Shown here: positions 28,561-62,363 of the stretch, in pieces
Position numbering within the stretch: the first letter of the stretch is position 1
How the letters are laid out: the number at the start of each line of letters is the position of its first letter
NCBI RefSeq assembly: GCF_032193805.1
Contig: NZ_JAVBIK010000001.1
Location: 2,749,001 to 2,813,000, forward strand
Source: Rhodoferax potami
GTDB taxonomy: Bacteria; Pseudomonadota; Gammaproteobacteria; Burkholderiales; Burkholderiaceae_C
Direction: 5' to 3'
Length of the DNA: 64,000 bases
Position numbers and translations under genes: made by a program
The notes under the pieces: generated by a model
Seen by the model: the letters and a program-made list of their open reading frames with translations, nothing else
Told to the model about the DNA's origin: nothing
Databases searched by the model: none

Positions 28561-28611
28561 ATTGCTACGATATTTATAGCTGCTCACGCATATTCGATTA
28601 GGGCTACAGGC
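28561..28611 (+). repeat. Dispersed palindromic repeat, copy A (obgE-proB gap)
   Basis: Pattern TTGCTAC-(AT-rich)-ATAGCTGCTCACGCATATTC-(gap)-GGGCTACAGGC. Aligns with the copies at 52920, 43856 and, reversed, 31737. It fills nearly the whole obgE-proB gap, ends 4 bases before the proB ATG, and provides the ACAGG that looks like proB's Shine-Dalgarno. Confidence 0.75.
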
Positions 28612-28615
28612 ATCA

Positions 28616-29752
28616 ATGAATCAAAAATTCAGCTCATCTGTTCTGCGTGATGCACGTCGTGTCGTGGTCAAGGTCGGCTCCAGTCTGGTCACCAATGATG
28701 GCCGCGGTTTGGATGAGCAGGCTATCGGTGAGTGGTGCCGCCAATTGGCGCATTTGATTCGTGATGGCCGCGAGGTCATCATGGTGTCGAGCGGCGCCAT
28801 TGCCGAAGGCATGAAACGTCTGGGCTGGGCAACCAGGCCGAAAGCGGTGCAGGAGCTGCAAGCGGCTGCGGCTGTGGGCCAGATGGGCCTGGCTCAGATG
28901 TACGAAACCAAGCTGCGTGCCAATGACTTGGGCAGTGCCCAAGTGTTGCTGACCCACGCTGACCTTGCCGACCGTGAGCGCTACTTGAATGCCCGCTCGA
29001 CCTTGCTGACGTTGTTGAAGCTCGGCGTGGTTCCGGTGATCAACGAGAACGACACGGTCGTCAACGATGAGATCAAGTTCGGCGACAACGACACCTTAGG
29101 TGCTTTGGTGGCCAATTTGGTGGAGGCGGATGCCTTGGTCATCCTCACCGACCAAAAAGGCCTTTTTACCGCGGATCCTCGCAAAGACCCTGCCGCCACT
29201 TTTGTGAGCGAAGCGAAGGCTGGCGACCCGGCCTTGGAGTTGATGGCCGGCGGCGCCGGTAGCAGCATTGGCCGTGGCGGAATGCTGACCAAAATTTTGG
29301 CGGCCAAGCGGGCTGCTGGTTCTGGCGCATCGACCGTGATTGCCTGGGGGCGTGAGCCAGATGCCTTGATCCGCCTGACGCAGGGCGATGCAATTGGCAC
29401 CTTGCTGATTGCCCAGACCCAAAAGAACCAGGCCCGCAAGCAATGGATGGCCGACCATCTGCAAATGCGCGGCGCCGTGGTTGTGGATGCCGGTGCAGCT
29501 GCCAAAGTGCGGGATGAAGGCAAGAGCTTGCTGCCCATTGGCATGCTGCAGGTCGAAGGCGAGTTCTCGCGCGGCGATGTGATTGCGGTGCGCGACGAAA
29601 CCGGCCTTGAGGTCGCCCGTGGACTGGCCAACTACGCCAGCGCCGAAGCCCGCCTGCTGTGCCGCAAGCCTTCTGCAGAGTTTGAGCGCCTGCTCGGTTA
29701 CGCAGCAGAGCCAGAAATGGTTCACCGCGATAACCTGGTACTCACCCGCTAA
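28616..29752 (+). CDS. proB: Glutamate 5-kinase
   Basis: 378 aa. Amino-acid kinase domain with [20 protein letters not shown] at 14-33, [15 protein letters not shown] near 57-71, [11 protein letters not shown] near 138-148 and [14 protein letters not shown] near 172-185. A C-terminal PUA domain ([13 protein letters not shown] to about residue 370) is present, as in full-length ProB. It phosphorylates glutamate in the first step of proline synthesis. The ribosome-binding region lies in a copy of the dispersed repeat. Confidence 0.98.
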
Positions 29753-29788
29753 GTGGGCTAATCTGGCCCCAGTTAGCCAGCACTGTGA

Positions 29789-30310
29789 CTATTGCTCGCT
29801 AGGCGCCCGGTAGTTCGGCGAGTTCTTTCCGAATTTCAGCGCGTTGAGAATCTCGGCTTTGCTGCCCGCGACCCGCGAGTCGCACGCAGCTTGGCGGGCA
29901 AATACGCGGGCGTGGGGGGAAGGCAGATTGCCCATCACATCGCGCCAGACAGGTGCGCTCACCACAGACCAGTTGCCGGATGAGCCTGCCCGGGCGTAGG
30001 TTTTGACCTCGCCGGTGAGGCAGCGAATACCTTCGTACATCGCGTTGCTCGTTCCGCTGGCGTTGGTCATCACTGCTACGTAACGCACCACGCCATCGCC
30101 CCCGACCATGATGGTCGACGGATCAATACCCACTTTGACAGTTACAAAGTTAGGCATATCCAGTGGCAGCACCTTGGACGTGGAAAACGCAGGAGCCGGG
30201 GGCTCCTTTTCTTCGGTCCAGTCAGGGTTGTCCAGTGTGTTCTGGGCGCCAGCAAAGCCCACGCACCCCCCGCAAATCAGGAGGGCTAGGGCGGATCGCA
30301 AGTTAATCAT
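29789..30310 (-). CDS. CNP1-like family exported protein
   Basis: 173 aa from the ATG at 30310, which overlaps the rppH stop as ATGATTAA; longer in-frame starts would lie deep within rppH. A signal peptide covers about residues 1-22 ([15 protein letters not shown]). The body has [35 protein letters not shown] and [16 protein letters not shown], matching the CNP1-like family found mainly in beta-proteobacteria beside rppH. Function unknown; probably periplasmic. Convergent with proB. Confidence 0.85.
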
Positions 30311-30929
30311 GGTGTGTGGGTGCATTGGTCCCCGGATCCGGCTCAAAAGACGCCCCAGGTGGCAATTCCATATGGTTAGGCTGCAGGCGGTCGAAACCGC
30401 TGTCTGCATCGCGCGTGCGATTACCGCCATGCCGCAGATAGCGGTTACGACTCTCGTGACGCGGCAGGTAGCGAGATAACTCGGTCAGCGCCATTTCATA
30501 GACGCCACGTTTGAATTCCACCACAGCGTCCAGCGGGACCCAATAGTCGTTCCACCGCCAGGCATCAAATTCCGGGTGGTCGGTGGCACGCAGGTTCAAA
30601 TCCCAGTCGTGGCCCACCAGCTGCAGAAGAAACCAGATCTGCTTTTGCCCTTTGTAATGTCCGCGAGCATCTCTGCGGACAAATCGGTCCGGCACCTCGT
30701 AGCGCAACCAGTCGCGGGTACGGGCAACAATGCTCACATGCTCCGGTTGGAGACCCACCTCTTCATGCAACTCCCGGAACATGGCCTGCTCGGGGGTTTC
30801 CCCCCGGTCAATGCCACCCTGCGGGAACTGCCACGAGTGTGTGCGTATGCGTTTGCCCCAAAATACCTGATTTTTCTGGTTGAGCAGGACGATGCCGACA
30901 TTGGGCCGAAATCCGTCCCGGTCAAGCAT
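30303..30929 (-). CDS. rppH: RNA pyrophosphohydrolase
   Basis: 208 aa from the ATG at 30929 ([20 protein letters not shown]), the start shared by relatives; an ATG 9 codons upstream is also in frame. The Nudix box is exact: [20 protein letters not shown] followed by VGL. The C-terminus is about 50 residues longer than E. coli RppH and carries basic, low-complexity sequence, common in Burkholderiales. It removes pyrophosphate from 5'-triphosphate RNA ends, starting RNA decay. Divergent from proS. Confidence 0.95.
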
Positions 30930-31020
30930 AATCAAACCCCAATTTTTAAACTTCATTCATTATGCACAGCGAATGCGGTGCATCAAGGTCTGAAGCTCCT
31001 TGTAGTTCACCGAGCGACCC

Positions 31021-32763
31021 ATGAAAGCCTCCCAATTTCTGATTTCCACCCTCAAAGAAGCACCCACCGATGCCGAAGTGGTGAGCCACAAGCTCATGAT
31101 GCGTGCGGGCATGATCAAAAAGCTGGGTGCCGGCATTTACAACTACATGCCTATGGGATTGCGGGTGATCCGCAAGGTGGAAGCCATCGTTCGTGAAGAA
31201 ATGAACCGGGCTGGCGCCGTCGAATTGACGATGCCCGTGGTCCAGCCTGCGGAGCTGTGGCAAGAGACCGGGCGCTTTGACAAGATGGGCCCCGAGCTGC
31301 TTCGTATCAAAGACCGCCATGACCGCGACTACGTGGTCCAGCCCACCAGCGAAGAGGTGGTGACGGACATCGCCCGTCAGGAAATCAAGAGCTACAAGCA
31401 GCTGCCCAAAAACCTGTACCAGATCCAGACCAAGTTCCGCGACGAGCGCCGCCCCCGTTTTGGCCTGATGCGTGGCCGCGAATTCATCATGAAAGACGCG
31501 TACAGCTTTGACCGCGACCAACACTCGGCCAAGGCCAGCTACCAAGTCATGGCCAAGGCCTACCGCCGCATTTTTGACCGCTTCGGGCTGACGTACCGCG
31601 CAGTTGCGGCAGACAGCGGCGCCATCGGTGGTGACTTGAGCGAAGAGTTTCAAGTTATTGCAGCCACAGGTGAAGATGCGATCGTGTACTGCCCAACCAG
31701 CGATTACGCGGCCAATATGGAAAAAGCAGAGTCGTTGGCGCCTGTAGCGCCCAGAGCGTCTGCGCAAGATGCTATGGAAAAAGTAGCAACACCCGGAAAG
31801 AGCACCTGTGAGGACGTGGCTGCGTTGTTGGGTGTGGCACTGAACACGACCGTGAAGTCTTTGGTGCTGGCGACAGACGAGAAAGATGAGCACGGCGCGG
31901 TCAAGAAAACCCAAGTCTGGCTCTTGCTGCTGCGTGGCGACCATGACATGAACGAGGTCAAGGTCGGCAAGCTGCCAGGTCTGGCCGAGTTCCGATTTGC
32001 CACCGTGGGTGAGATTGAAGAACACTTCGGCTGCAAGCCCGGTTACTTAGGGCCCATTGGCCTGAAGCAGCCACTCAAGATCGTGGCGGACCGCGATGTA
32101 GCCGTCATGGCCGACTGGATTTGTGGTGCCAACGAAGAAGGCTTTCACATCCGGGGCGTCAACTGGGGCCGTGATCTGCCGGAGCCCGACATGGTCGCGG
32201 ATCTGCGCAATGTGGTCGAAGGCGATGCCTCTCCCGATGGCAAAGGCGTGCTGGCGATTGAGCGCGGCATCGAGGTCGGCCACGTGTTCTACCTGGGTAC
32301 CAAGTACAGCAAGGTAATGAATGCGACCTTCCTGGATGTGAACGGCAAGCCCCAGTTCATGGAAATGGGCTGCTACGGCATCGGGATCACCCGCCTGCCT
32401 GCCGCGGCAGTTGAGCAGAACCACGATGACAAGGGCATCATCTGGCCCGACGCACTGGCACCTTTTACCGTGGTGCTGTGCCCGATCAACCCGGACCGTT
32501 TCCCCGACGTCAAGGCAGCCGCTGACAAGCTCTACGAAGAGTTGTTGGCTGCGGGTGTGGACGTGATTCTGGATGATCGCAACGAGCGCCCCGGCGCCAT
32601 GTTTGCAGACTGGGAGCTGATTGGCGTGCCCCACCGTGTGAACATTGGCGATCGCGGTTTGAAAGAGGGTGTGGTCGAGTACCAGCACCGCCGCGAGAGC
32701 GCGGCTACCAGCGTGGCGGTCGCCGATATTGCTGCGCTGTTGCTGGGCAAGTTGACGGCATGA
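31021..32763 (+). CDS. proS: Prolyl-tRNA synthetase (bacterial type with editing insertion)
   Basis: 580 aa, standard length. Class II motif 1 region ([20 protein letters not shown]), motif 2 ([20 protein letters not shown]), the INS editing domain at about residues 225-405, motif 3 ([15 protein letters not shown]), and the anticodon-binding domain from about 470. It charges tRNA-Pro. Residues 240-257 are encoded by bases that match the dispersed repeat in reverse orientation, at the start of the editing domain. The stop overlaps the next gene as ATGA. Confidence 0.98.
31737..31790 (-). repeat. Dispersed palindromic repeat, copy G inside proS
   Basis: Read on the minus strand: TTGCTAC-(T-rich)-CATAGCATCTTGCGCA-(gap)-GGGCGCTACAGGCGCC, aligning closely with copy A over both conserved blocks. 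It is in frame with proS. The segment may instead be ancestral protein sequence, so confidence is moderate. Confidence 0.45.
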
Positions 32764-33404
32764 CTAAGCCGGTAGCCGCATCCGGCGTTACTCGCCGGAT
32801 CGGGCTGCAGCGCTTGTTTCTATTAGGCGGCTTGCTATCGTTCTCGCAGCAGAAGGCGTGGGCAGGCAGGCAACTGGAAGAGCCCTTGGTGGACTCGGTG
32901 CGAACAGCGCTGTCGTCTGCCATCTCCAACTCGGCACCGCCGATTCCTGAGTTCCAGGACACCGAGAGCCGCTTGAATTACTTGCGCTGGCTGGGTGCCA
33001 TGAGCGAGCGACTCAAAAAGAAAAAGCCGGAGTGGGATGTGCGGCGGGAGTTTTTGCAGACCGTCTGGTACGAAAGCAAGCGCGCAGGCCTGGATGTGTC
33101 GCTGGTACTGGGCCTGATTCAGGTGGAGAGCAACTTCCGCAAGTTTGCCGTGAGCAGCGTGGGCGCACGGGGCTATATGCAAGTGATGCCGTTCTGGACA
33201 CGGGTGCTTGGCGACGGCGACGCCGGCAAGTTGTTTCACATGCAAACCAACCTGCGCTTTGGCTGTGTCATCTTGCGCCATTACCTCGAGCGCGAGCGGG
33301 GCGATATGTTCTTGGCTTTGGGGCGCTACAACGGCTCGCGTGGCAAGGCGCCTTATCCCAATGCCGTCATGGCGAACAAGCGCCTCTGGGATTGGGCCGG
33401 TTAA
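32760..33404 (+). CDS. Lytic transglycosylase domain-containing protein
   Basis: 214 aa. An N-terminal signal-like segment ([18 protein letters not shown], to about residue 35) is followed by a soluble SLT domain: catalytic Glu123 in [20 protein letters not shown], then MQVMPFW and the [10 protein letters not shown] block. It should cut peptidoglycan glycan strands in the periplasm. Coupled to proS by an ATGA overlap, an arrangement common in Comamonadaceae; its 3' end overlaps the convergent GGDEF-EAL gene by 4 bp. Confidence 0.9.
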
Positions 33405-35275: not shown

Positions 35276-35346
35276 AGCAGACTCCCTGCAACACGCAATA
35301 AATCTGCAGTGCCCGGTCTAAGGTGCCGGGCTGTCCGCAGGTGAAT

Positions 35347-35673: not shown

Positions 35674-35789
35674 GTCAGTACTTCCAAGTAGATAGTTAGA
35701 TACCCCGATTATTTCACCATCGCATTTGCCTGTCGTCGGTACGGGCGAACGATGCACCCCCTTGACCGCTTTTTAGGATAATCAAGCCC

Positions 35790-36266: not shown

Positions 36267-36434
36267 TTGCGAGCTTTAAATCGCCGGCCTCTTTGAATTT
36301 CTCGATGGGCTGTTTTGTTGGCACGATCTGCCAATAAATTTTAAAAATAGGCAAACTGCGCAATCGGCTGCCTGACCTGCGGGGCTAAGATACCAGTCTA
36401 GATATTGGTGTCATGCCCTTCAGGAGTTTTTGCC

Positions 36435-38174: not shown

Positions 38175-38194
38175 TTACGCTCACTGATGAAAAG

Positions 38195-38561: not shown

Positions 38562-38575
38562 GGATTCTTTCTATG

Positions 38576-38625
38576 TGCTATCAATTCAGTAGCTGCTGGC
38601 GCAATAAATATGAGCGCTAGAGCTC
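38576..38625 (+). repeat. Dispersed palindromic repeat, copy B (prmC-yjdM gap)
   Basis: GCTATCAATTC-AGTAGCTGCTGGCGCAA-TAAATATGAGCGCTAGAGC. Shares the ATAGCTGCT-GCGC and GAGCGCTAGAGC blocks with copy D. It fills most of the 70-bp gap between prmC and yjdM. Confidence 0.7.
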
Positions 38626-38631
38626 AATTTC

Positions 38632-39465
38632 TTATAAATCTGGAGCGGTCCACTGGCCGCCGCTGCAGCGCTCGATCCCGGCCAAGTCCTGGCGGCTTTG
38701 CACGTTGGCGAAGCCTGCAGCCTCCAAGAGCGCCCGCACGTCAGCAGCTTGGTCATAGCCGTGCTCCAGCAGCAGCCAGCCGCCGGTCTGCAGCCGGGTC
38801 TTGGCTTGGTCGATGATGGTGCGGATGTCGTCCAGCCCGTCATCGCCCGCGGTGAGTGCTTGGCGCGGCTCAAAGCGCAGGGCGGGCAGGTGTTCGTCGT
38901 CCTCGCGGATATAGGGCGGGTTGGAGACGATGGCCTGAAACACGCCCTCTGTGCCATTGAGCCAGGAGCCTTGGCTGAAGGTCACCGCCAACCCCAGCCG
39001 CTGCGCATTGGCTTGTGCGACGGTCAGTGCGGCGTGGCTGTAGTCCACCGCCTCCACCTGCAGCGCAGGCCGCGTAGACTTGAGTGCCAGCGCAATCGCA
39101 CCGCTACCGGTGCCCAGGTCCACCACTCGGGCTTCGGGCATTGGCTCCAACACATTCAGCGCCCAGTCGACCAGCGTTTCAGTGTCAGGGCGGGGCACCA
39201 ACACATCGGAGTTGACCTGCAGGTTCAGCCCGTAAAACTCCTTGTGCCCCACGATGTAGGCCACCGGCTCGCCGGCCAACCGGCGCGCAACATAGCCCTG
39301 TAGCGAGGTGTTGACCGCTTCGCTCACCAGGTCCGTGTCGTGGGCGAGCAACCAGGCCCTTCCTGCCCGCGGCTGACCCAGCGCGTGCAACAAAAGCAGG
39401 CGGCTGTCCGTCAGATCCAGGCCCCGGGTTTGCAGGGTGGCGATGGTTTGCGATATGGAGGGCAT
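38632..39465 (-). CDS. prmC: Peptide chain release factor N5-glutamine methyltransferase
   Basis: 277 aa. N-terminal helical substrate-binding part (to about 75), then a Rossmann methyltransferase with SAM motif VVDLGTGSGAIALALK near 116-131 and catalytic VSNPPYIRE near 184-192 (NPPY methylates the GGQ glutamine of release factors). It modifies RF1 and RF2. Lies downstream of prfA in the same direction, but 275 bp with repeat elements separate them. Confidence 0.97.
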   Translation of the reverse strand: MPSISQTIATLQTRGLDLTDSRLLLLHALGQPRAGRAWLLAHDTDLVSEAVNTSLQGYVARRLAGEPVAYIVGHKEFYGLNLQVNSDVLVPRPDTETLVDWALNVLEPMPEARVVDLGTGSGAIALALKSTRPALQVEAVDYSHAALTVAQANAQRLGLAVTFSQGSWLNGTEGVFQAIVSNPPYIREDDEHLPALRFEPRQALTAGDDGLDDIRTIIDQAKTRLQTGGWLLLEHGYDQAADVRALLEAAGFANVQSRQDLAGIERCSGGQWTAPDL

Positions 39466-39466
39466 A

Positions 39467-39518
39467 TTTGCTCTAAATTTGATAGCGAACGGTGCAGGGG
39501 AAACGAGGGCTAAACGCC
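39467..39518 (+). repeat. Dispersed repeat, variant copy F upstream of prmC
   Basis: TTTGCTCTAAATTTGATAGC followed by GAACGGTGC and GAGGGCTAAACGCC. It has the same TTTGCT...GATAGC hairpin start and GGGCTA end as the other copies, with a divergent middle. It lies immediately before the prmC start codon. Confidence 0.5.
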
Positions 39519-39594: not shown

Positions 39595-39725
39595 CCTCCG
39601 TGTCTTTCGGAGGCGTATGCATCAGGCACCGGGAGTTAGGGCGGCTGGGCGTTTTGCGCAGGTCAAGGAGGAGCCCGCAAAGCGGGCGGGGGACACGGAG
39701 CAAAGCGCCCAGCCGCCCCAACTCC
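39595..39725. repeat. Compound inverted-repeat element in the prfA-prmC gap
   Basis: Three nested or adjacent dyads: CCTCCG/CGGAGG at 39595-39613; a long inverted repeat with 26-nt arms, 39632-39657 against 39700-39725 (24 of 26 pair; arms read GGAGTT-GGGCGGCTGGGCG-TTTGC); and inside it GCCCGC-AAA-GCGGGC at 39673-39687. No protein-like reading frame is convincing. It resembles a REP or small non-autonomous element. The full gap 39466-39740 holds this element, copy F of the dispersed repeat and no gene. Confidence 0.7.
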
Positions 39726-39740
39726 AACCCGTAAGCAAAC

Positions 39741-40980: not shown

Positions 40981-41011
40981 GAGTGGGGTGAACCCCGAAG
41001 CTTGACCCCAG

Positions 41012-42271: not shown

Positions 42272-42338
42272 ATGTTTAGACGCCGATTATAAAATCCAGC
42301 GTCTACCCACCCCGCCAAAGCCTCGATTGGCCTTTGCA

Positions 42339-42617
42339 ATGACCGCCATGGGCCCACTCGATCTCCTGAACCACCTGTTGAATTTTGCGGCTCCCGCCTT
42401 GTTCGTGGGTTTGCTGTTGGCCCTTCTGGCGCCACTTTTGTATAAAAAAGTGCCGGTGGCGCACGGTTTGCGAGCGCAGGTAGCTATTAATTTTGTAGCG
42501 GGTCTGGTGGCCTTGGTGGGTGGGCTCGTGTTCTTCGGGCGCGACGGCAAGATGCTCAGCTATGCCGCCATGGTGCTGGCCTGTGCCGCCAGCCAGTGGT
42601 GGGCCATGCGCCGCTGA
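42339..42617 (+). CDS. Small conserved membrane protein, function unknown
   Basis: 92 aa from the ATG at 42339 (a second ATG at 42348 is equally possible); the longer in-frame version would start inside hemA. Three hydrophobic segments: about residues 14-35 (FAAPALFVGLLLALLAPLLY), 50-66, and 75-88, separated by short charged loops (KK, GRDGK). I do not recognise a family with certainty; proteins of this kind sit next to hemA in related genomes. Bases 42451-42500 within it resemble the dispersed repeat. Confidence 0.7.
   Translation: MTAMGPLDLLNHLLNFAAPALFVGLLLALLAPLLYKKVPVAHGLRAQVAINFVAGLVALVGGLVFFGRDGKMLSYAAMVLACAASQWWAMRR
42451..42500 (-). repeat. Possible degenerate repeat copy H inside the small membrane protein gene
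   Basis: Read on the minus strand: CGCTACAAAATTAATAGCTA followed by CCTGCGC, similar to the TTGCTAC-AT-rich-ATAGCTAC-TCGCGC start of copy C. Only the first half is recognisable. Confidence 0.3.
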
Positions 42618-43325: not shown

Positions 43326-44130
43326 ACAAGTCCACCCGGTCGGTGATGATGCCGTCGGTGTGCAGATCCATCAGCCGCTGTGCGGTGGGCTCGTCATTCA
43401 CGGTGTAGCTCAGGGTGCGCATGCCGGCGGCTTTGGCTTGGGTCACGGTGCTGCTGTCCCAAAGCTTGTGGTTGCACACAATGGCGTGGCAACCCAGGCG
43501 CTGGGCGGTCTCGAGCCAGCCGCTCCAGAGTTCATCTAGCAAGAGGCCGCGGGGCAGCTCTGGCTGGGTGGCTTGGGCGCCTTCCAGGGCCTCAGTGGAA
43601 AAGGAGGTCAGCAATGGCGGCACAGGCTGGCCGGCCCACAGGCGGCCAGCGTGCCGGGCCACGACCTCTCCGGTGTGGCGCTCGGTACCTGGCGTGGGTT
43701 TGATCTCGATATTGAGCAAATAGCCGTTGCGGATGCAGTAGGCGGCAATGCCGTCCAGCGTCGGGATGGTTTCACCCGCATACGCGCGGCTGTGCCAGCT
43801 GCCGGCATCGAGTTGGCTCAGGGTGGACCAGCTGTGATTGCCCGCAATCGCTTCATTTGCTACATCTTTGATAGCTACTCGCGCATATTCCACCTGCGCC
43901 AGAGCCTGATTGGATGCATTCGTGGTACGGGTGAGGGTGGCGTCGTGCAGCAAGAATGGCACGCCATCCGCGCTGAGTTTGACGTCGCATTCGAACATGC
44001 GGTAGCCGTGGCTGGCCCCCAGGCGAAAGGCGGATAGCGTGTTCTCTGGCGCCAGCTTGCCGGCACCCCGGTGCGCCACCCAGCGGGGGTAAGGCCAAGC
44101 GGGGAGGTCGAACACGTTCTCTGCCGTCAT
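43312..44130 (-). CDS. ugpQ: Glycerophosphodiester phosphodiesterase
   Basis: 272 aa, about 20 residues longer than usual. GDPD hallmarks: [20 protein letters not shown] at 17-36 (catalytic His-Arg and Glu), [20 protein letters not shown] at 46-64, and NIEIKPTPG. Residues 73-92, between TRTTNA and [11 protein letters not shown], are encoded by a copy of the dispersed repeat and form an in-frame insertion in a surface loop. No signal peptide, so cytosolic. It hydrolyses glycerophosphodiesters to glycerol 3-phosphate and an alcohol. ATGA overlap with ugpC. Confidence 0.95.
43856..43906 (+). repeat. Dispersed palindromic repeat, copy C inside ugpQ
   Basis: TTTGCTACATCTTTGATAGC, TACTCGCGCATATTCCAC and TGCGCCAGAGCC: nearly the same as copy D (52920-52970) block for block. 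It lies inside ugpQ on the strand opposite to the gene and keeps the frame open. Confidence 0.72.
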
Positions 44131-48533: not shown

Positions 48534-51500
48534 ATGAACGCTCCCACCTCGCTCAATCACCTCCTCAGCGCTGCCCAGCCGGGCGCGCACGCGCAAGAGC
48601 GCATTCGTGAAATCCCGTACAACTACACGTCGTTCTCTGACCGGGAAATCGTGATTCGTTTGCTGGGTTCTCAAAGCTGGGAGCTGTTGAACCAGTTGCG
48701 CGGAGAGCGCCAGACCGGTCGTTCGGCCCGCATGCTCTATGAAGTGCTGGGCGATGTCTGGGTGGTGCAGCGCAACCCCTATCTGCAGGACGACCTGCTG
48801 GACAACCCCAAGCGCCGCGGCCAGTTGGTCGATGCATTAAACCACCGCCTCTCGGAGGTCGAGAAGCGCCGTACCCCAGAGGCTGACCCTGAGCGTGATG
48901 CCATGGTCGGCCAGCTGCTGGTAGCTGCCCGGGCGGCGGTTAAAGCGTTTGACGCTGCATTTGTCGAAGTGGCCGCCCTGCGCAAAAAGACCCAGAAGCT
49001 GCTCTACAAGCTCACTGCCAAAGACAACGTCAAGTTTGATGGTCTGAGCCGCGTAAGCCATGTGACCGACGCGACCGACTGGCGTGTGGAGTACCCCTTT
49101 GTGGTGCTGTGCCCGGATTCGGAAGAAGAGATGGCCCGTTTGGTCAAGGGCTGTATAGAGCTGGGGCTGACCATCATTCCTCGCGGGGGCGGCACCGGGT
49201 ACACCGGCGGCGCGATTCCGCTGACCTGGAAGAGCGTGGTCATCAACACCGAGAAGCTCGAAGCCATGACCGAGGTGGAGATGAAACGCCTCCCCGGTTT
49301 GGATCGTGATGTGGCCACCGTGTGGTCAGAAGCCGGTGTGGTCACCCAGCGCGTGGCCGATGCCGCCGAGCGCGGCGGCTATGTGTTTGCGGTGGACCCG
49401 ACGTCTGCTGAAGCCTCGTGTATTGGCGGCAACATTGCCATGAATGCCGGCGGCAAAAAGGCCGTGTTGTGGGGCACTGCGCTGGACAACCTGGCCAGCT
49501 GGCGCATGGTGACGCCGCAGGCCGAGTGGCTGGAAGTGACCCGTATCAACCACAACATGGGCAAGATCCATGACGTGGAAGTGGCCAGCTTCGAGCTGCA
49601 GTACTACAAGGCCGACGGCAAAACGCCGATCCGCAAAGAGCGCCTGGACATTCCCGGTGCCACCTTCCGCAAAGAAGGCCTGGGCAAAGACGTCACCGAC
49701 AAGTTCCTGAGCGGCTTGCCCGGCATCCAGAAAGAGGGCACTGATGGCCTGATTACCAGCGCGCGCTGGGTGGTGCACAAAATGCCCGCCCACACCCGCA
49801 CGGTGTGCCTGGAGTTCTTTGGCAATGCCAAGGACGCGGTGCCCAGCATTGTGGACATCAAGGACTTCATGTTCGCCGAGCAAAAGCGCAGCGGCGTGTT
49901 GCTGGCCGGCTTGGAACACTTGGACGACCGTTACCTGAAAGCGGTGGGCTACGCCACCAAGAGCAAGCGCGGCGGCTTTCCCAAGATGGTGTTGTTCGGC
50001 GACATTGCCGGCGACAACGCTGATGATGTGGCCCGCGTCACCAGCGAAGTGGTGCGCTTGGCCAACGGCCGCAGTGGCGAAGGCTTTGTGGCCATCAGCC
50101 CTGAGGCGCGCAAGAAATTCTGGCTGGACCGCAAGCGCACGGCTGCCATCAGCAAGCACACCAACGCCTTCAAGATCAACGAAGACGTGGTGATCCCGCT
50201 GCCCCGCATGGCGGAGTACACCGACGGCATCGAGCGCATCAACATTGAGCTGAGCCTGCAAAACAAGCTGGCTCTCTGCGATGCGCTGACCGCTTTCTTT
50301 GAGCGCAGCGACCTGCCTTTGGGCAAAACCGACGACGCCAACGACATTCCATCGGCCGAGCTGCTCGAGGACCGGGTCGCCCAAGCGCTGGATCTGGTGG
50401 CACAAGTGCGTGGCGAGTGGCAAGGCTGGCTGGATGGGGTGGAGACACTGTTCCCCGAGTTGCAAGACCACCGCCTGCGCGCCAGCTGGAAGACACAAAT
50501 CCGCACGCCGCTGCAAGCGATATTTACGGGTGCGGCATTCGACGCCATCTTGGCGGAGTGCGCCGCCATCCACAAGCGCGTGCTCAAAGGTCGCGTCTGG
50601 GTGGCTTTGCACATGCACGCCGGCGACGGCAATGTGCATACCAACATTCCTGTCAACAGCGATGACTACGACATGCTGCAAGCCGCTCACGGTGCGGTCA
50701 AACGCATCATGACGCTGGCCCGCAGCCTGGACGGCGTGATCTCCGGCGAGCACGGCATTGGTATCACCAAGCTGGAGTTTTTGAGCGAAGCCGAGCTGGC
50801 GCCTTTCATTGCCTACAAGGCCAAAGTAGACCCCGAAGGCCGCTTCAACAAAGGCAAGTTGCTCCGAAATCAGGAGCTGCCCGCGCAGCCTGGTAGCGGG
50901 TTCGCACCGCATTTGACCGCGGATGGCTCTGCCATCTATGCCGATTTGACCAATGCCTACACGCCGTCGTTCGGCCTGATGGGGCACGAGTCTTTGATCA
51001 TGCAGCAGAGCGATATTGGTGCGATTGCCGATTCGGTCAAAGACTGCCTGCGCTGCGGCAAATGCAAACCGGTGTGCGCCACCCACGTGCCACGCGCCAA
51101 CCTGCTCTACAGCCCGCGCAACAAGATTCTGGCGACCTCGTTGCTGGTCGAAGCCTTCCTTTATGAGGAGCAGACCCGCCGCGGCATCAGCGTCAAGCAC
51201 TGGGAAGAGTTTGAAGACGTGGCCGACCACTGCACGGTCTGCCACAAGTGCGAATCGCCCTGCCCGGTGAAGATCGACTTTGGCGACGTGACCATGAACA
51301 TGCGCAACTTGTTGCGCAAGATGGGGCAGAAGTCCTTCCGCCCCGGCAATGCGGCCGCCATGTTTTTCTTGAACGCGACCAACCCCGAGACCATCAAGCT
51401 GATGCGCTCGGCCATGGTGGGCGTGGGCTTCAAGGCGCAGCGCTTGGCGAATCAGGTCTTGCGCCTGGCCGCCAAAAAGCAGACCGCCAAGCCGCCGGCC

Positions 51501-52484: not shown

Positions 52485-52494
52485 GGGGGGCGCC

Positions 52495-52908: not shown

Positions 52909-52919
52909 CCCTCGACCTG

Positions 52920-52970
52920 TTTGCTATTGTTTCAGGAGCTGCTCGCGCATATTCCATGAGCGCTAGAGCC
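52920..52970 (+). repeat. Dispersed palindromic repeat, copy D (DUF971-ubiE gap)
   Basis: TTTGCTATTGTTTCAGGAGC, TGCTCGCGCATATTCCATGA and GCGCTAGAGCC. Best-preserved copy in the window. It occupies most of the 79-bp gap; the ubiE ATG follows 17 bases after its end. Confidence 0.78.
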
Positions 52971-52987
52971 CCATTTGGACTAAAACT

Positions 52988-53718
52988 ATGAGTACTACCC
53001 ATTTCGGTTTCAAGTCGGTCGATGAGTCGGAAAAGGCCAGCCACGTGCGTGGCGTGTTTGACTCCGTCGCCCCCAAATACGACTTGATGAACGACCTGAT
53101 GTCCGCCGGCCTGCACCGCGCCTGGAAGGCCTACACCGTGCTGGTGGCCAACCTCAAAGAGGGCGATAAGGCCCTGGACATTGCCGGCGGCACCGGTGAC
53201 CTGGCCATGGCGTTCTCCAAGAAAGTCGGCAAGTCCGGCCAGGTGGTGCACACCGATATCAACCAAGCCATGCTCTCCACCGGCCGCAACCGCTTGCTGG
53301 ATGCCGGCATCGTGTTACCCACGCTGGTGTGCGATGCAGAAAAGTTGCCTTTCCCCGACAACTACTTCAATGTGGTCAGCGTGGCCTTCGGCTTGCGCAA
53401 CATGACCCACAAAGACGTGGCTTTGGCAGAAATGCAACGCGTCTTGAAACCCGGTGGCAAGCTGTTGGTGTTGGAGTTTTCCAAGGTGGCTCCCCCCTAG
53501 AGAAGGTGTACGACTGGTACTCTTTCAAGGTGTTGCCGCGTTTGGGCAAGCTGATCGCGGGTGATGACGCCAGTTACCGGTACTTGGCGGAGTCGATCCG
53601 CATGCACCCGGGCCAGAAAGAGCTAAAGACCCTGATGCACAAAGTGGGCTTTGGTCATGTGGACTATCACAATTTGACTGGCGGTATTGCCGCTTTGCAT
53701 GTTGGAATCAAGTGCTGA
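52988..53718 (+). pseudogene. ubiE: Ubiquinone/menaquinone methyltransferase UbiE, frameshifted in a C run
   Basis: The reading frame from 52988 gives a normal UbiE N-terminus ([20 protein letters not shown]), SAM motif [15 protein letters not shown] and [10 protein letters not shown], then stops at 53500. The expected continuation [20 protein letters not shown] through [11 protein letters not shown] lies in another frame to 53718. Adding one C to the six-C run at 53492-53497 restores one frame with [12 protein letters not shown], exactly aligned to the family, and a 243-aa protein. UbiE is needed for respiratory quinones, so a homopolymer sequencing error is the likeliest cause, though a true mutation cannot be excluded. 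Confidence 0.92.
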
Positions 53719-53743
53719 AGACAGTTACACCCAGGAGATAACT

Positions 53744-54742: not shown

Positions 54743-54776
54743 AGCCGGTCATTTTTCAGGCAGATAATGGGGGACT

Positions 54777-56887: not shown

Positions 56888-56939
56888 CAGCGCACCTATA
56901 ATTGAGAGTTTTGCAACTTCAGGTCTGAGCTCTACTTCC

Positions 56940-57263
56940 ATGCCCATTTACGCCTATAAATGCGAGTCCTGCGGGTTTGCCAAGGATGTATTGCAGAAAA
57001 TCTCTGACGCACCTTTGCAGGATTGCCCTCAGTGCAATGCCCCGGCATTCAAAAAGCAAGTAACCGCCGCCGGTTTCCAACTCAAGGGTTCCGGTTGGTA
57101 TGTGACCGATTTCAAAGGTGGCAGTGCCCCCGCAACTGGTGTGGCACCTGCCGCCCCAGACAGCGCAGCACCCAAAACCGACGCAAAAACGGACTCGAAA
57201 TCGGAAGCGCCGGCTGCCGCACCTGCGCCTGCTGCGGCCTCAACACCGTCTACCTCCACCTGA
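56940..57263 (+). CDS. FmdB family zinc-ribbon protein
   Basis: 107 aa. Short regulatory-type zinc ribbon MPIYAYKCESCGFAKDVLQK with CxxC pairs at about 9/12 and 30/33 (CPQCNAPAF). The C-terminal 45 residues are a low-complexity Ala/Pro/Lys/Ser tail (AAPKTDAKTDSKSEAP). Commonly found just before DUF502 and aspS in beta-proteobacteria, as here. Function unknown. Confidence 0.9.
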   Translation: MPIYAYKCESCGFAKDVLQKISDAPLQDCPQCNAPAFKKQVTAAGFQLKGSGWYVTDFKGGSAPATGVAPAAPDSAAPKTDAKTDSKSEAPAAAPAPAAASTPSTST

Positions 57264-57275
57264 ACCGGAGCACCT

Positions 57276-57926
57276 GTGCCCATTAAAAAATACCTGCTTA
57301 CCGGCCTGATGGTCTGGTTGCCCTTGGCGATCACGATCTGGGTTCTTTTGTGGTTGGTGGGTTTGCTGGACGCCGTGTTTGCCAGCTTTCTGAGTGGCGT
57401 ATCGGCGGTCGCACCGACCAGCAGTGCGCCGACCATTGAGCACCTGCACAGCATTCCCGGTTTAGGGGTGGTTTTGGTGTTTGCGGCCCTGCTGGTGACG
57501 GGCGCTTTGGTATCCAACGTGGCAGGGCGCTGGTGGGTCAAGCAGTGGGACAAGTTGTTTACCAACATTCCTATTGTTAAATCCATCTACAACAGCGTCA
57601 AAAAGGTGTCGGACACCTTGTTTTCCAGCAATGGGAATGCGTTTCGCACCGCGCTGTTGATTCAATACCCCCGCGAAGGTAGCTGGACTATCGGTTTCCA
57701 GACCGGTACGCCGGGCGGAGAGGTGGCCTCACATTTGGGCGATGCTTTTGTCAGTGTGTATGTCCCGACCACGCCTAACCCTACCAGCGGCTTCTTTCTG
57801 ATGTTGCCGCGCAAGGACGTCATTGAGCTCGACATGAGCGTGGACGAAGCGTTGACTTATGTGATTTCCATGGGCTCTGTGGCCCCCAGTGCACTCCCCG
57901 TGAAGCCGGGTAGCGCGCCTCAATAA
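57276..57926 (+). CDS. DUF502 family membrane protein
   Basis: 216 aa. Two membrane helices, about 5-30 (LLTGLMVWLPLAITIWVLLW) and 62-85 (LGVVLVFAALLVTGALVSNV), followed by IPIVKSIYNSVKKVSDTLFS near 108-127 and a soluble part with VSVYVPTTPNPTSGFFLMLP, the DUF502 hallmark. Inner membrane protein of unknown function. 12 bp after the FmdB gene. Confidence 0.93.
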   Translation: MPIKKYLLTGLMVWLPLAITIWVLLWLVGLLDAVFASFLSGVSAVAPTSSAPTIEHLHSIPGLGVVLVFAALLVTGALVSNVAGRWWVKQWDKLFTNIPIVKSIYNSVKKVSDTLFSSNGNAFRTALLIQYPREGSWTIGFQTGTPGGEVASHLGDAFVSVYVPTTPNPTSGFFLMLPRKDVIELDMSVDEALTYVISMGSVAPSALPVKPGSAPQ

Positions 57927-57940
57927 CCCTATTACTAACC

Positions 57941-57959
57941 CGTCGCAGGCACTGCGACG
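57941..57959 (+). promoter_or_regulatory. Hairpin upstream of aspS
   Basis: CGTCGCA-GGCAC-TGCGACG, perfect 7-bp arms, 15 bases before the aspS ATG and 14 bases after the DUF502 stop. No T run, so not a standard terminator; it might shape aspS translation. Confidence 0.4.
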
Positions 57960-57974
57960 AATCGAAAGCACTCT

Positions 57975-59789
57975 ATGGCTATGCGTACTCACTATTGCGG
58001 TCTTGTGACCGAAGCCCTGTTGGGCCAAACCGTAACCCTGTGTGGCTGGGTGAACCGTCGCCGCGACCACGGTGGCGTGATTTTTGTCGATGTGCGTGAC
58101 CGCGAAGGCTATGTGCAAGTGGTCTGCGACCCCGATCGCGCGGACATGTTCAAGGTGGCTGAAGAGATCCGCAACGAATATTGCGTGCAAATCAAGGGCT
58201 TGGTGCGTGCTCGTCCCGAAGGCACCACCAACGACGGTCTCAAGAGCGGCAAGATTGAAGTGCTGTGCCACGAGCTGACGGTGCTGAATGCGTCGGTTAC
58301 ACCTCCGTTCCAGCTGGATGAAGACAATTTGTCCGAAACTACCCGCTTGACCCATCGCGTGTTGGATCTGCGCCGCCCCTACATGCAAAACAACCTGATG
58401 CTGCGCTACCGCGTGGCCATGGAAGTGCGCAAGTTTTTGGACGCTAACGGTTTTGTGGACATCGAAACCCCGATGTTGACCAAGAGCACGCCCGAAGGCG
58501 CGCGCGACTACCTGGTGCCAAGCCGTGTGCACGATGGCCAATTTTTTGCGCTGCCCCAGTCGCCCCAACTGTTTAAACAGCTGTTGATGGTGGCGGGCTT
58601 TGACCGCTACTACCAGATCACCAAGTGCTTCCGCGACGAAGACTTGCGCGCTGACCGCCAGCCTGAATTCACCCAGATCGATATTGAAACCTCGTTCCTG
58701 ACGGAAGAGGACATCCGTGACATGTTCCAAGGCATGATCACCACCGTGTTCAAGAACACCATTGGTGTGGACCTCGGTGAATTCCCGGTCATGACCTACC
58801 AGGACGCAGCCCGCTTGTACGGCTCCGACAAGCCTGACTTGCGCGTGAACCTCGAGTTTGCCGAGCTCACCGACGTCATGAAGGATGTGGATTTCAAGGT
58901 CTTCTCCGGAGCAGCCACCATGAAGGGTGGCCGTGTGGTGGCCTTGCGCATTCCCGGTGGCTCGGTGGAAGGCGGTGGTATCAGCCGTGGCGAAATCGAT
59001 GCTTACACCGAGTTCGTCAAGATCTACGGCGCCAAAGGCTTGGCCTACATCCGCGTGAACGACCTTTCCAAGGGCCGTGATGGTCTGCAAAGCCCAATCG
59101 TGAAAAACATCCACGACGCAGCCCTGAATGCTGTGCTGGAGCGCACTGGTGCCCAGAACGGCGATCTGATCTTCTTCGGTGCAGACAAAGAAAAGATTGT
59201 CAACGACGCGATCGGTGCCCTGCGCTTGAAGGTCGGGCATAGCGAGTTCGGTAAGAAGAACGGTTTGTTCACGGCCGGCTGGCGTCCGATGTGGGTGGTC
59301 GACTTCCCTATGTTCGAATTCGACGAGGAAAACGGACGCTACACCGCCGTGCACCACCCGTTCACAGCCCCCAAGGCCGGTCACGAAGACTGGATGGTCA
59401 CTGCGCCCGAGAAATGCATCTCGCAAGGCTACGACATGGTGTTGAACGGCTGGGAAATGGGCGGTGGCTCTGTCCGTATCCACCGTGCTGATGTGCAGCA
59501 AAAGGTGTTCGATGCCCTGAAGATCACACCGGAAGAAGCCCAGCTCAAGTTCGGCTTCCTGCTCGATGCCTTGCAGTACGGCGCGCCTCCACACGGTGGC
59601 TTGGCCTTCGGTCTGGACCGTATCGTGACCTTGATGACCGGTGCAGAGTCCATCCGTGACGTGATTGCTTTCCCCAAGACCCAGCGCGCGCAATGTTTGT
59701 TGACGCAGGCGCCGAGCCCGGTGGACGAAAAGCAGCTGCGCGAACTGCACATCCGCTTGCGCAACGTGGATTTGGCCAAAACAGCCTGA
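57975..59789 (+). CDS. aspS: Aspartyl-tRNA synthetase (AspRS, bacterial type)
   Basis: 604 aa. N-terminal OB-fold ([20 protein letters not shown]), class II motif 1 ([20 protein letters not shown]), motif 2 ([20 protein letters not shown]), the bacterial GAD insertion at about 285-420, and motif 3 ([20 protein letters not shown]). Charges tRNA-Asp; many beta-proteobacterial enzymes also charge tRNA-Asn. A strong terminator follows. Confidence 0.98.
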
Positions 59790-59824
59790 AACGTGGTGGG
59801 CCCGTCAGCGGGTCGTGCACAATG

Positions 59825-59851
59825 AAAGGGCGCCTCTGTGGCGCCCTTTTT
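59825..59851 (+). terminator. Rho-independent terminator after aspS
   Basis: AAAGGGCGCC (59825-59834) pairs with GGCGCCCTTT (59840-59849), loop TCTGT, with T run to 59851. Lies 35 bases after the aspS stop and 13 bases before the nudB start, which also argues against longer nudB starts at 59838. Confidence 0.93.
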
Positions 59852-59864
59852 CATTGCGAGGCCC

Positions 59865-60365
59865 ATGACGTTGCCGTACAAAATTCCTCAGTCGGTCTTG
59901 GTGGTGATCTACACGCCACAGCACGAGGTACTGCTGATACGCCGTGTGGAGCCTGACCCCTTGGCGCCACCCTTTTGGCAATCCGTGACGGGGGCCAAAG
60001 ACTTTCCAGAGGAGAGCTGGGCCTTCACAGCAGCCCGGGAGGTCTGGGAAGAGACGGGCCTCGACTGCCGACCCGGCGGGCCCTTCGAGCACGGGCTGGT
60101 CGATTGGGAGCTGGAGAACATTTATCCGATTTATCCCCGCTGGCTGTACCGATACGCTCCTGGCGTTACGCACAACACCGAGCGGGTGTTTGGCTTGGGG
60201 GTTCCGCACAAGCCCGATGTTCATTTGAGCCCTACGGAGCACACGGATAGCTGTTGGCTGCCGATGGCCGATGCAGCGGACCTCTGCTTTTCTCCTTCCA
60301 ATGCGGAGGCCATCTTGATGCTGATGCACCGGGATCGGCTGCCATTGGGGAGGAGCGGGGCATGA
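59865..60365 (+). CDS. nudB: Dihydroneopterin triphosphate diphosphatase (Nudix)
   Basis: 166 aa from the ATG at 59865, the first start after the terminator. Opens TLPYKIPQSVLVVIYTPQHE and carries a Nudix box TGAKDFPEESWAFTAAREVW followed by EETGL near residues 41-65, with one extra residue compared with the strict pattern. NudB removes pyrophosphate from dihydroneopterin triphosphate in folate synthesis; the nearby folE supplies that substrate. Its stop overlaps the next start as ATGA. Confidence 0.87.
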   Translation: MTLPYKIPQSVLVVIYTPQHEVLLIRRVEPDPLAPPFWQSVTGAKDFPEESWAFTAAREVWEETGLDCRPGGPFEHGLVDWELENIYPIYPRWLYRYAPGVTHNTERVFGLGVPHKPDVHLSPTEHTDSCWLPMADAADLCFSPSNAEAILMLMHRDRLPLGRSGA

Positions 60366-61111
60366 CAAATTTGCGCGTTGTCACTTACAACATCCACAAG
60401 GGTGTGCAGGGTTTTGGCCCGATGCGCCGTTTGGAGATTCACAACCTCAGCCATGCGATGGCCGGCATGGAGGCCGATGTGCTCTGTTTGCAAGAAGTTC
60501 GCAAAATGCACCACGGTGAATCCCGGCATTTCCCGCATTGGCCTGAAGCGCCCCAAGCCGACTTTCTGGCTCCCGAGGGCTACCATGCGGTGTACCGCAC
60601 CAATGCAGTGACTCGCCACGGTGAGCACGGCAATGCCTTGCTGTCACGATGGCCGGTGCTGACGCATCAACACGAAGATATGTCTGACCACCGCCTGGAA
60701 CAGCGGGGTCTTTTGCATGTGGAGTTGGATGTGGCGGGCCGCAGTGTGCATGTGCTGGTGGTCCATTTGGGGCTGATCCGGACGAGCCGGGCACGTCAAC
60801 TGCAGCAGCTGGCTCGCTATGTGGAGCGTGAGATACCGCGGCACTGCCCGCTGCTGGTCGCGGGCGACTTCAATGACCTTGGGCCTTGGGTGGCGAAGCA
60901 ACTGGCAGGCTCTGAACTGCAGGCCCCTGTGACCCGACGGTGCGCCACCTTTCCCTCCCGACTGCCGCTGGTGCAACTGGATCATGTGCTGGGCCGGGGC
61001 CTGTTGCCCGCGGCCTCGCATGTGCCGCGCGGCCCGCAGTGGGCGCGCATGTCAGATCACCTGCCCTTGGTGACGGAGTGGAATTTGCCCACGGAGTGGC
61101 CGGCATGCTGA
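60362..61111 (+). CDS. Endonuclease/exonuclease/phosphatase family protein
   Basis: 249 aa from the ATG at 60362 (MTNLRVVTYNIHKGVQGFGP), coupled to nudB. Metal-site residues: VTYNIHKG near 7-14, LCLQEVRKM near 40-48 (Glu), HVLVVHLGL, LVAGDFNDLG near 164-173 (D-N-D), and MSDHLPLV near 229. Family acts on phosphodiesters or sugar phosphates. Genes of this type often precede clsB (ybhP-clsB in E. coli), so lipid metabolism is possible. Confidence 0.9.
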   Translation: MTNLRVVTYNIHKGVQGFGPMRRLEIHNLSHAMAGMEADVLCLQEVRKMHHGESRHFPHWPEAPQADFLAPEGYHAVYRTNAVTRHGEHGNALLSRWPVLTHQHEDMSDHRLEQRGLLHVELDVAGRSVHVLVVHLGLIRTSRARQLQQLARYVEREIPRHCPLLVAGDFNDLGPWVAKQLAGSELQAPVTRRCATFPSRLPLVQLDHVLGRGLLPAASHVPRGPQWARMSDHLPLVTEWNLPTEWPAC

Positions 61112-62322
61112 GGCCTCCCGAGGTCAGATCAGGCCATGTGCTGCATTTGTTGAGTGGCGGTGATGAGTTTTTTCCGGCACTGGTGGGGGCTATCGACGAC
61201 GCCCAACACGAGGTGCGACTGGAGACCTACATTTTTGATTTCAACGGCCAAGGTGCCGATGTGGCCGAGGCCTTGGCCCGCGCAGCGCAGCGTGGGGTCG
61301 CGGTATTTGTGGTGATGGATGGTGTGGGTACCCCCTATCTGCCCGCCCATTGGATGGAGCGTTGGCGCCAGTGTGGAGTGCAGTGGCACCGCTACGCACC
61401 CTTCGGCTACACGGGGGTGTTGATTCCCGGCCGGTGGCGGCGTCTACACCGCAAATTGTGTGTGGTCGATGGGCAGCGGGCGTTTTGTGGCGGTATCAAC
61501 ATCCTGGATGACTGGCTGGACCCCCACTTTGGCGCACTAAGTGTGCCGCGACTCGACTACGCCGTGGCGGTGACAGGCCCCTTGGTCGCACAATGCCATG
61601 CGGTGATGGCCCAGTTTTGGGCCCGCCTGCAAGCGACCCGGCAGTTGGAGTCTCTTCAGTGGGCCCGCGTCCGCCAAAGCTGGAAGGCCTTTCGGTTGTT
61701 GCCTCCGCCAAGTGATGCGCCGGGCGCTTCCAAAGCGGATGATGGCAGCGTGCTGGCAGCGCTGCTCTTGCGCGATAACGTGCGCAATCGCACGACGATT
61801 GAGCGCAGCTATCTCAAGGCGATTGGCGCGGCCCGCGAACACGTGGTGCTGGCGAATGCCTATTTCCTGCCCGGTGGTCGATTGCGGCGGGCACTGATCC
61901 ACGCTGTGAAACGTGGGGTGCGTGTGCAGGTCGTGGTGCAAGGTCAATACGAATACTTCATGCAGTACCACGCGGCCCGCCCGGTACTGAGCCTTCTGGC
62001 TGCAAGGGGGGTGGAGATCTGTGAATACATGCCCGGTTTTTTGCATGCCAAGGTAGCGGTGGTCGACGGAGTGTGGGCTACCGTTGGGTCGTCCAATCTC
62101 GATCCCTTGAGCTTGCTTCTGGCGAGAGAAGCCAATGTGGTGGTGCACGACGAAAAGTTTGCAGGCCGCTTGTCCGGCGCCCTGGAGCAGGTGATTCAGG
62201 GTCATACCCGGCCTTGGGATCTGACGGCAGATGCCCGTCGCCCTTGGTTCGAACGGGTGTTTGATCGTCTGGCCTACGGGGTGATGCGACTGATCTTGCT
62301 ATTTAGTGGGCGGCGCTATTAA
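61105..62322 (+). CDS. clsB: Phospholipase D-like cardiolipin synthase B
   Basis: 405 aa from the ATG at 61105, which overlaps the previous stop (ATGCTGA). Two PLD HxKx4D motifs: LHRKLCVVDGQRAFCGGINI near 114-133 and LHAKVAVVDGVWATVGSSNL near 313-332. The N-terminus GHVLHLLSGGDEFFPALVGA and no leading membrane helices fit ClsB rather than ClsA. It makes cardiolipin at the inner membrane. The stop codon TAA and last codons fall inside copy E of the dispersed repeat. Confidence 0.9.
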   Translation: MLRPPEVRSGHVLHLLSGGDEFFPALVGAIDDAQHEVRLETYIFDFNGQGADVAEALARAAQRGVAVFVVMDGVGTPYLPAHWMERWRQCGVQWHRYAPFGYTGVLIPGRWRRLHRKLCVVDGQRAFCGGINILDDWLDPHFGALSVPRLDYAVAVTGPLVAQCHAVMAQFWARLQATRQLESLQWARVRQSWKAFRLLPPPSDAPGASKADDGSVLAALLLRDNVRNRTTIERSYLKAIGAAREHVVLANAYFLPGGRLRRALIHAVKRGVRVQVVVQGQYEYFMQYHAARPVLSLLAARGVEICEYMPGFLHAKVAVVDGVWATVGSSNLDPLSLLLAREANVVVHDEKFAGRLSGALEQVIQGHTRPWDLTADARRPWFERVFDRLAYGVMRLILLFSGRRY

Positions 62323-62363
62323 ATATATAGCGCTTGGCGCAATGTTTATAAGGGCCTTTTGCT
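62315..62363 (+). repeat. Dispersed repeat, copy E overlapping the clsB stop
   Basis: GCTATTAAATATATAGCGCT-TGGCGCAATGTTTATA-AGGGCCTTTTGC. Similar to copy B (GCTAT-AT-rich-AGTAGC-TGGCGCAATAAATA). It supplies the last tyrosine and stop codon of clsB and lies upstream of folE. Confidence 0.55.

Follow-up and report, generated by a model that had tools for sequence, protein, structure and literature searches.

A short palindromic sequence recurs along a 64,000-nucleotide stretch of the Rhodoferax potami genome (NCBI RefSeq assembly GCF_032193805.1, contig NZ_JAVBIK010000001.1, positions 2,749,001 to 2,813,000), hereafter the window, and the question raised by this locus is what the sequence is and why it has been kept. 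An original prediction, made from the letters of the window, proposed a dispersed palindromic repeat of about 50 bp in at least four and perhaps eight places, linked it to the Comamonadaceae, and offered an RNA hairpin, a protein target or a mobile-element relic as its nature. The reading that we tentatively favour is that of an old family resembling repetitive extragenic palindromes (REPs) and miniature inverted-repeat transposable elements (MITEs), about 62-66 bp long, whose core is probably kept as a protein-binding DNA site.

A dispersed repeat family with a fixed core

The window corresponds to C1:2749001-2813000 of the 4.0-Mb R. potami genome (G000, the own genome). An alignment of 32 own-genome copies gave the consensus ATTTGCTATnAATTTnATAGCTGCTCGCGCATATTCCATGAGCGCTAGAGGCCnATTTGATnCnnAA, about 62-66 bp in length rather than the 50 bp first proposed, with scant common sequence beyond its edges. 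The core comprises GCTAT-n7-ATAGCT followed by nGCGC and GCGCTAGAGGC, with fixed spacing. The repeat is palindromic, as predicted, yet imperfectly so, and in the same alignment the palindrome is preceded by the head variants ATAG, GTAG and GGAG (position 1: A in 24/32 copies and G in 8/32; position 2: T in 29/32 and G in 3/32).

The core pattern of three copies named in the original prediction matched the window three times, against 0.02 matches expected. A longer core pattern, with up to three mismatches, matched 33 times genome-wide, 20 times on the plus and 13 times on the minus strand; its reversal gave no match in the genome at the same tolerance. Fewer than ten genome copies at chance similarity, the outcome named at the outset as speaking against a family, was thus not what was found. 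A sequence-only model built from the 32 copies (R1) gave at least 150 matches in a genome scan, the weakest listed having an E-value of 1.9e-7. In 840 kb of the own genome, part of which was chosen for its clusters of copies, nhmmer identified 82 copies at E ≤ 1e-4, and none at E ≤ 1e-2 once the whole of this sequence was reversed. Twenty roughly evenly spaced 20-kb stretches held 34 copies at E ≤ 1e-4, which extrapolates to about 317 copies per 3.73-Mb main contig. The dispersed repeat family is real and beyond chance.

Copies in the window were scored with R1 with filters off; the R1 training set included those at 52920-52985, 43856-43918 and 28562-28627. Gene names such as proB, obg, prmC and ubiE are assigned from Pfam domains.

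52920..52985, plus strand: full element, 61.5 bits, between GBBH-like and ubiE-like genes, ending 2 bases before the ubiE start
43856..43918, plus strand: full element, 55.4 bits, within a minus-strand GDPD gene, antisense, frame intact
28562..28627, plus strand: full element, 52.7 bits, at the obg-proB junction, with the proB-like start codon within it
38574..38638, plus strand: element, 35.4 bits, covering the stop codon (3' end) of a minus-strand prmC-like gene
31731..31790, minus strand: decayed element-like stretch, 23.6 bits, E 1.9e-6, inside a prolyl-tRNA synthetase gene
42446..42500, minus strand: decayed element, 16.5 bits, E 2.9e-4, between hemA-like and HAD hydrolase genes
23712..23776, minus strand: weak element-like match, 17.5 bits, E 1.4e-4, inside a ManC-like gene, antisense; not listed in the original prediction
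50858..50887, plus strand: in-frame element remnant, 13 bits, in a DUF3683/FAD-linked oxidase gene
62314..62341, no strand assigned: remnant, about 8 bits alone (E 0.12-0.13), at the junction of PLD-like and GTP cyclohydrolase I genes
39467..39486, plus strand: remnant, about 8 bits alone (E 0.12-0.13), upstream of the prmC-like gene

All eight places first proposed belong to the family: four are strong copies, two are decayed but significant, and two are remnants. Their placement near starts, over a stop codon and in frame inside genes is as had been described, and the GC content of the five best window copies is 0.38-0.57. Counterparts of the 38574-38638 copy were found in the related genomes G001, G007 and G022. 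A copy from G015 maps to 42434-42508, and one from G042 falls within 42307-42522. The places near 62315 and 39467 are read as remnants because related genomes carry clear copies at both junctions: copies from G015 (within 62145-62384) and G045 (within 62288-62359) map to the first, and copies from G015, G022 and G045 map between 39285 and 39760. The second place also gave a weak match when elements of named loci were mapped onto G000.

Distribution of the repeat

Among 25 genomes of the same GTDB genus, R. potami included, 10 had at least 80 matches at E ≤ 1e-5, one had 11, three had one or two, and 11 of 25 had none under stricter filters. Sixteen genomes from other families of the order gave no match under the same filters. 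A mixed model (R2) was run at E ≤ 1e-6 on 250 genomes, in 126 genera, from the GTDB family of R. potami; 82 of the genomes and 51 of the genera had the repeat, a census of presence in which some genomes have a single match. Carriers among the matches listed (the best 80 of at least 119 stretches) were Acidovorax, Rhodoferax, Giesbergeria and Simplicispira, and further carriers among the matches listed were Diaphorobacter, Extensimonas, Comamonas and Paenacidovorax; these genera bear out the proposed link to the Comamonadaceae. Carriage by phages or plasmids was rejected, since a search with the own-type consensus (E ≤ 0.01) found no copy in 50,697 phage records, and one with the Acidovorax-type consensus (E ≤ 1e-3) gave matches in 4 of 72,556 plasmid records.

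Past insertion and age

In the wider genus, the element precedes ubiE at 12 of 28 loci and is missing from the other 16; among 25 loci upstream of proB, 11 have it, one has a remnant and 13 are without it. Presence at these loci was read by eye with nhmmer support; a single ubiE locus and three proB loci that were only partial are outside these counts. The clearest empty gaps at the two loci in congeners measure 8 to 28 bases. Within genes, the DUF3683/FAD-linked oxidase of G018 and G014 is short by 14 to 19 residues that others possess, and the missing residues coincide exactly with a recognisable copy in G009, G022, G015 and G042, the genomes that carry clear copies at the 50858-50887 place. 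In the GDPD gene, protein alignment shows that the copy adds about 12 residues relative to most congeners, in a variable linker. The empty sites at genus level and the in-frame protein insert demonstrate past insertion, and the empty sites support the mobile-element origin offered in the original prediction. The proS-like gene is an uncertain case: its element-like stretch at 31731-31790, a place that also matches in G007, G009 and G042, alters no length relative to genomes without a copy.

Synteny with G000 extends across 200 kb in both G001 and G007, which in one segment tested are 94% and 92% identical to it, respectively. For 57 elements (E ≤ 1e-3), 114 comparisons were made among these three genomes, of which 99 were mappable and 15 were not; the element was present in 83 of the 99 and 16 had no recognisable element. 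Closed-up empty sites numbered zero among the 99 mapped comparisons in these 200 kb. The 16 element-less sites look decayed rather than empty, because none of their gaps had closed up. A lack of empty orthologous sites, the other outcome named at the outset as speaking against the family, is seen in the three closest species and not in the wider genus, where such sites are present. Recent transposition was rejected on the same count (0 of 99). Nor does the spread look recent in a comparison of ungapped copies within each of 13 genomes, which covered part of each genome's copies, since no pair was more than 87% identical (best pairwise identity 0.87). No terminal inverted repeat was seen in the consensus on inspection by eye.

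Positions shared across genera

The proB and ubiE loci were picked because G000 has copies there. In 26 high-copy genomes, which represent 21 other genera, the 140 bases before proB were searched for a copy: 25 have one at E ≤ 0.01 and 22 at E ≤ 1e-4, G067 being the sole genome without one. Upstream of ubiE, a copy was found within the same distance in 14 of 26 other-genus genomes at E ≤ 0.01 (11 at E ≤ 1e-4). At both loci the E-values refer to a small search space. The proB copies of other genera share the same orientation and mostly end at or just before the start codon. Thirty-seven proB windows of equal length, drawn from the own genus and 21 others, need no gap in their alignment, and TAGC and C30 are invariant among them. 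For 24 proB and 9 ubiE sequences at E ≤ 1e-3, other-genus pair identity was 0.592 for proB-proB, 0.555 for ubiE-ubiE and 0.553 for proB-ubiE (permutation p = 0.007), a slight excess of likeness for pairs from one locus over pairs from two.

In a reverse mapping, 20 of 202 named-locus elements, mostly of other genera with at least two of Rhodoferax, were placed on G000 DNA. For 7 of the 20, G000 has a copy at E ≤ 1e-4, for 4 a weak copy and for 9 none; counted by distinct G000 junction (n = 14), 4 are clear, 3 weak and 7 without a copy. Some Acidovorax copies correspond to places in G000 where the anchors are 6 and 15 bases apart, and opposite a 6-base gap sits a copy of Acidovorax radicis, at a junction that we take to be hisB-hisH. 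Since only some of the placed elements have G000 copies, part of the positions are ancestral and part were later gained or lost. The spread of the family is old.

Upstream of ubiE, many other genera (L415-L440) also keep a conserved stretch with GGGGTTGTCGCTGTAC, unseen in the own genus.

Placement and orientation in the genome

Copies were placed with a custom open reading frame caller based on hexamer scores, which classified 80 of 82, two at stretch ends being dropped. Of these, 54 were intergenic and 26 lay inside genes (17 antisense, 9 sense). Gaps between tandem genes held 26 sense and 14 antisense copies, convergent gaps 12 and divergent gaps 2. Divergent gaps were avoided: they make up 87 of the 390 gaps that measure 50 bases or more but contain 2 of the 54 intergenic copies (p = 5e-4). 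The 12 copies in convergent gaps compare with 53 such gaps among the 390 (p = 0.10). Runs of orientation along the chromosome were mildly non-random, with 58 sign changes against 72 expected (p = 0.011).

Orientation by replication strand, as in single-strand transposons, was rejected: 77 of 147 chromosomal copies were co-oriented with replication, with the origin (about 1.95 Mb) and terminus (about 0.05 Mb) guessed from GC skew and three copies on contig C3 excluded.

An antisense copy can provide the gene that follows it with a start codon, the ATG within GCTATG of the first hairpin. Such cases are G000:C1:2819768-2819836 and L097 4193-4251 (Acidovorax), where the genes are presumably gpsA and hisH, respectively.

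Rate of change in the core

Twenty elements were chosen in G007 and differences were counted between G000 and G001; because the copies were chosen in G007, there was no selection on the sequences compared. In intergenic elements the core differed at 22 of 308 positions and the other element columns at 60 of 347 (p = 8e-5), so that the core changes more slowly than the element's other columns, at 0.41 times their rate. The non-core columns change like third codon positions, 16.6% of which differ between G000 and G001.

Several results weigh against a core maintained for protein binding. The core (22/308) is not slower than ordinary intergenic DNA (615/7612, 8.1%, p = 0.67), and the two comparisons in which it does beat intergenic DNA (p = 8e-5 and 4e-4) are less clean, using a pair that contains the sister of the selection genome. 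Far orthologues at ubiE and proB, drawn only from genomes with a recognised copy, are 81% identical in the core and 43% in the loops, and copies from different loci are alike in this respect (core 80-83%, loops 40-42%). As far orthologues match different-locus copies in identity, no history is left in the loops, and the core has stayed that of the family. The locus signal is small, with proB as its source, part of the conservation at proB could be explained by selection on the ribosome-binding region, and repeated insertion at the same spot is still conceivable as a source of shared positions. No binding protein or transposase was found for the repeat, target duplication at old sites was not readable by eye, and several window copies are decayed when judged against related genomes. 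The orientation biases are also weak, both in tandem gaps (sense to antisense 26:14, p = 0.08) and inside genes (antisense to sense 17:9, p = 0.17). Gene conversion could help to keep the core, but its tracts should carry the loops along.

The same data bear on a pure relic, in which a selfish element of an old spread is decaying without function and the conservation of its core reflects the consensus-like copies that are seen. Decayed orthologues are common, no near-identical copies occurred among those compared, 11 of 25 same-genus genomes are without a match at E ≤ 1e-5 and three have one or two, and the core is no slower than other intergenic DNA, all as such a relic would have it. The rate of 0.41 for copies chosen in a third genome, and the gap-free proB windows with invariant TAGC and C30, speak against it, and we regard a functionless relic as unlikely.

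RNA structure

Acting as RNA, transcribed hairpins of the repeat would shield the 3' ends of mRNAs, cause transcriptional attenuation or regulate the translation of the gene that follows. The copies at gene 3' ends and junctions and the runs of orientation are consistent with this, as is the folding of the Acidovorax-type consensus and one own copy, far better than that of shuffles (z = -2.95 and -2.42). The other four own-genome copies and the own consensus were not unusually stable (z from -1.5 to +0.95). Under two hairpin schemes, covariation among 50 mixed copies remained within that of shuffles. In 37 proB orthologues four of five covariation measures were ordinary and one, changes on both sides, was slightly high (reached by 37 and 40 of 500 shuffles), and RNAalifold predicted no common pair for these orthologues. 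No Rfam match was obtained in the window at the gathering score, and a search of 6.8 kb with five copies under an E-value threshold gave one sub-threshold match, off the copies. Antisense copies, moreover, make up 14 of 40 in tandem gaps and 17 of 26 inside genes.

The RNA hairpin suggested in the original prediction was thus not supported: covariation did not exceed that of shuffles, proB yielded no consensus fold, and four of five folded own-genome copies were of ordinary stability; it is doubtful that the family is an RNA element. Because the RNA tests were unsupportive and many copies are antisense, protein recognition, probably of DNA, is favoured, though only indirectly.

Pairing in a pseudoknot or between loop and tail was also considered and rejected, since no pair of columns of this kind, with pairing letters, stood out among the 30 top mutual-information pairs.

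RAYT genes

A REP system would be served by a RAYT (REP-associated tyrosine transposase, a Y1 tyrosine transposase). The ATAG/GTAG/GGAG heads before an imperfect palindrome resemble REP tags, and one 246-amino-acid RAYT of G015 has an element copy on each side. Y1 transposase genes occur in 20 of 25 genomes (16 of the genus and 9 from other families), zero-match genomes included, and RAYT-type genes are found in same-genus genomes without a match at E ≤ 1e-5 (G004, G005, G008 and G010). Inspection by eye showed other repeats next to several RAYT loci, and the syntenic RAYT is accompanied by a truncated element. A partnership of the repeat with RAYTs was not supported, as RAYTs occur with and without the element; given also the lack of near-identical copies among those compared and of any replication-strand bias (77/147), it is very unlikely that the RAYTs of these genomes still serve the family.

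A RAYT-type gene lies at L248 (G000:C1:2693730-2693990), with corresponding loci in many genomes of the genus; the gene downstream is presumably gltB. Repeats of the GGGGTCAGA type occur near these RAYT genes, and a truncated element copy stands beside the gene in several genomes.

A proposed protein-bound core and what it would imply

For the protein-bound DNA site that we favour, the proposed course of events is as follows. Small non-autonomous insertion elements would have spread in the ancestors of Comamonadaceae-type bacteria by means of a putative transposase. Copies would have come to rest mainly at the ends of genes, in some cases providing a start codon, a stop codon or an in-frame protein insert, and would afterwards have been inherited mostly vertically, with losses and some later gains. 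The core would still be under selection, most likely through a host protein that binds double-stranded DNA.

It is possible, though rather unlikely, that the repeat forms a genome-wide cis-acting system of the Comamonadaceae, with about 300 sites of about 60 bp per chromosome, kept across genera, at orthologous junctions between genes, by selection through a trans-acting factor, with lineage dialects and with wholesale loss of the sites linked to that of the factor. An example of a dialect, changed in place by lineage, is position 31, which is A or another letter according to genus: A in 12 of 12 own-genus proB windows and in 4 of 25 other-genus proB windows, in 80 of 82 own-genome copies, found with a model itself seeded with A there, and in 14 of 113 named-locus copies, five Rhodoferax loci excluded.

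If the core is protein-bound, uncharacterised sites numbering up to hundreds per genome exist in about one third of the genomes sampled from the family, and some of them lie where housekeeping genes (proB and ubiE, for example) start or end. The near all-or-none presence within one genus would then make the partner findable by genome comparison. If the repeat is only an old insertion element, it is a good case of small repeats turned into start codons, stop codons and protein inserts and kept thereafter.

Relation to known repeats

Rickettsia palindromic elements are small palindromic repeats with in-frame protein inserts, and enterobacterial repetitive intergenic consensus (ERIC) sequences are small palindromic repeats with long-standing common positions; the present family resembles both in these features. 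With respect to MITEs, empty orthologous sites are found in the wider genus and none among the three closest species. The resemblance to REPs lies in the high copy number, the imperfect palindrome, the location at gene ends and the possible GTAG/GGAG-like head, GGAG being a REP tag. GTAG is described as a REP tag as well (PMC8266576), and REPs are 20-40 bp long (PMC3733652), whereas the present element is longer (62-66 bp), has no RAYT tied to it and has many positions common across genera. The main text of PMC3733652 makes no mention of Acidovorax, Rhodoferax, Polaromonas, Delftia, Comamonad or Variovorax.

Two potential novel motifs published in 2017, GCTTAT(N)5AAGCG in Acidovorax ebreus and ATAGCT(N)22CAAAAG in Polaromonas naphthalenivorans, had 114 and 125 copies, mostly intergenic (PMC5217627). 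The A. ebreus motif was found in 44 convergent, 4 divergent and 59 co-oriented gaps, the same avoidance of divergent gaps as seen here. In loci L071-L189, 107 of 147 occurrences of GCTTAT(N)5AAGCG fall inside the element, many sites being counted on both strands; the Polaromonas motif fits the element by position only. In that account, as far as it was available, the two are separate spaced motifs of two genomes rather than parts of a single element, and insertion, age, orthology and selection are not analysed; one model now unites them.

The Beta-proteobacterial repeat element (BRE) is, in Bordetella, 75-91 bp long with a mean GC content of 69%, is often in tandem and varies in number (PMC3110155). 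Like the present family it is dispersed, lies both between and within genes and occurs in Comamonadaceae and elsewhere; the present element (62-66 bp, GC 0.38-0.57) is set apart from it by the available description, not by alignment. Among the open PubMed Central papers searched, with subscription papers and supplements outside the search, the whole element was described nowhere; of five core sequence strings one turned up, in papers whose titles point to unrelated subjects. Relative to these open papers the family is new when taken whole, yet of a known kind.

Other observations in the window

A second dispersed repeat, GC-rich, palindromic and about 95 bp long, lies at 39633-39729. It has many matches in each of six relatives (80-98% identity among the matches listed), the 200-kb region of G000 contains just one more copy, and it could be related to BRE.

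At 52988-53718 the ubiE-like frame closes after 170 amino acids, and a second frame is called at 53506-53718. The early closure is seen in the own genome only, the other 28 same-genus frames being 243-347 amino acids long, and reflects either a sequencing error or a real frameshift.

The segment 40029-40184 of the prfA-like gene has a match at a second place in each of five relatives, with 80-85% identity; this second place is presumably prfB.

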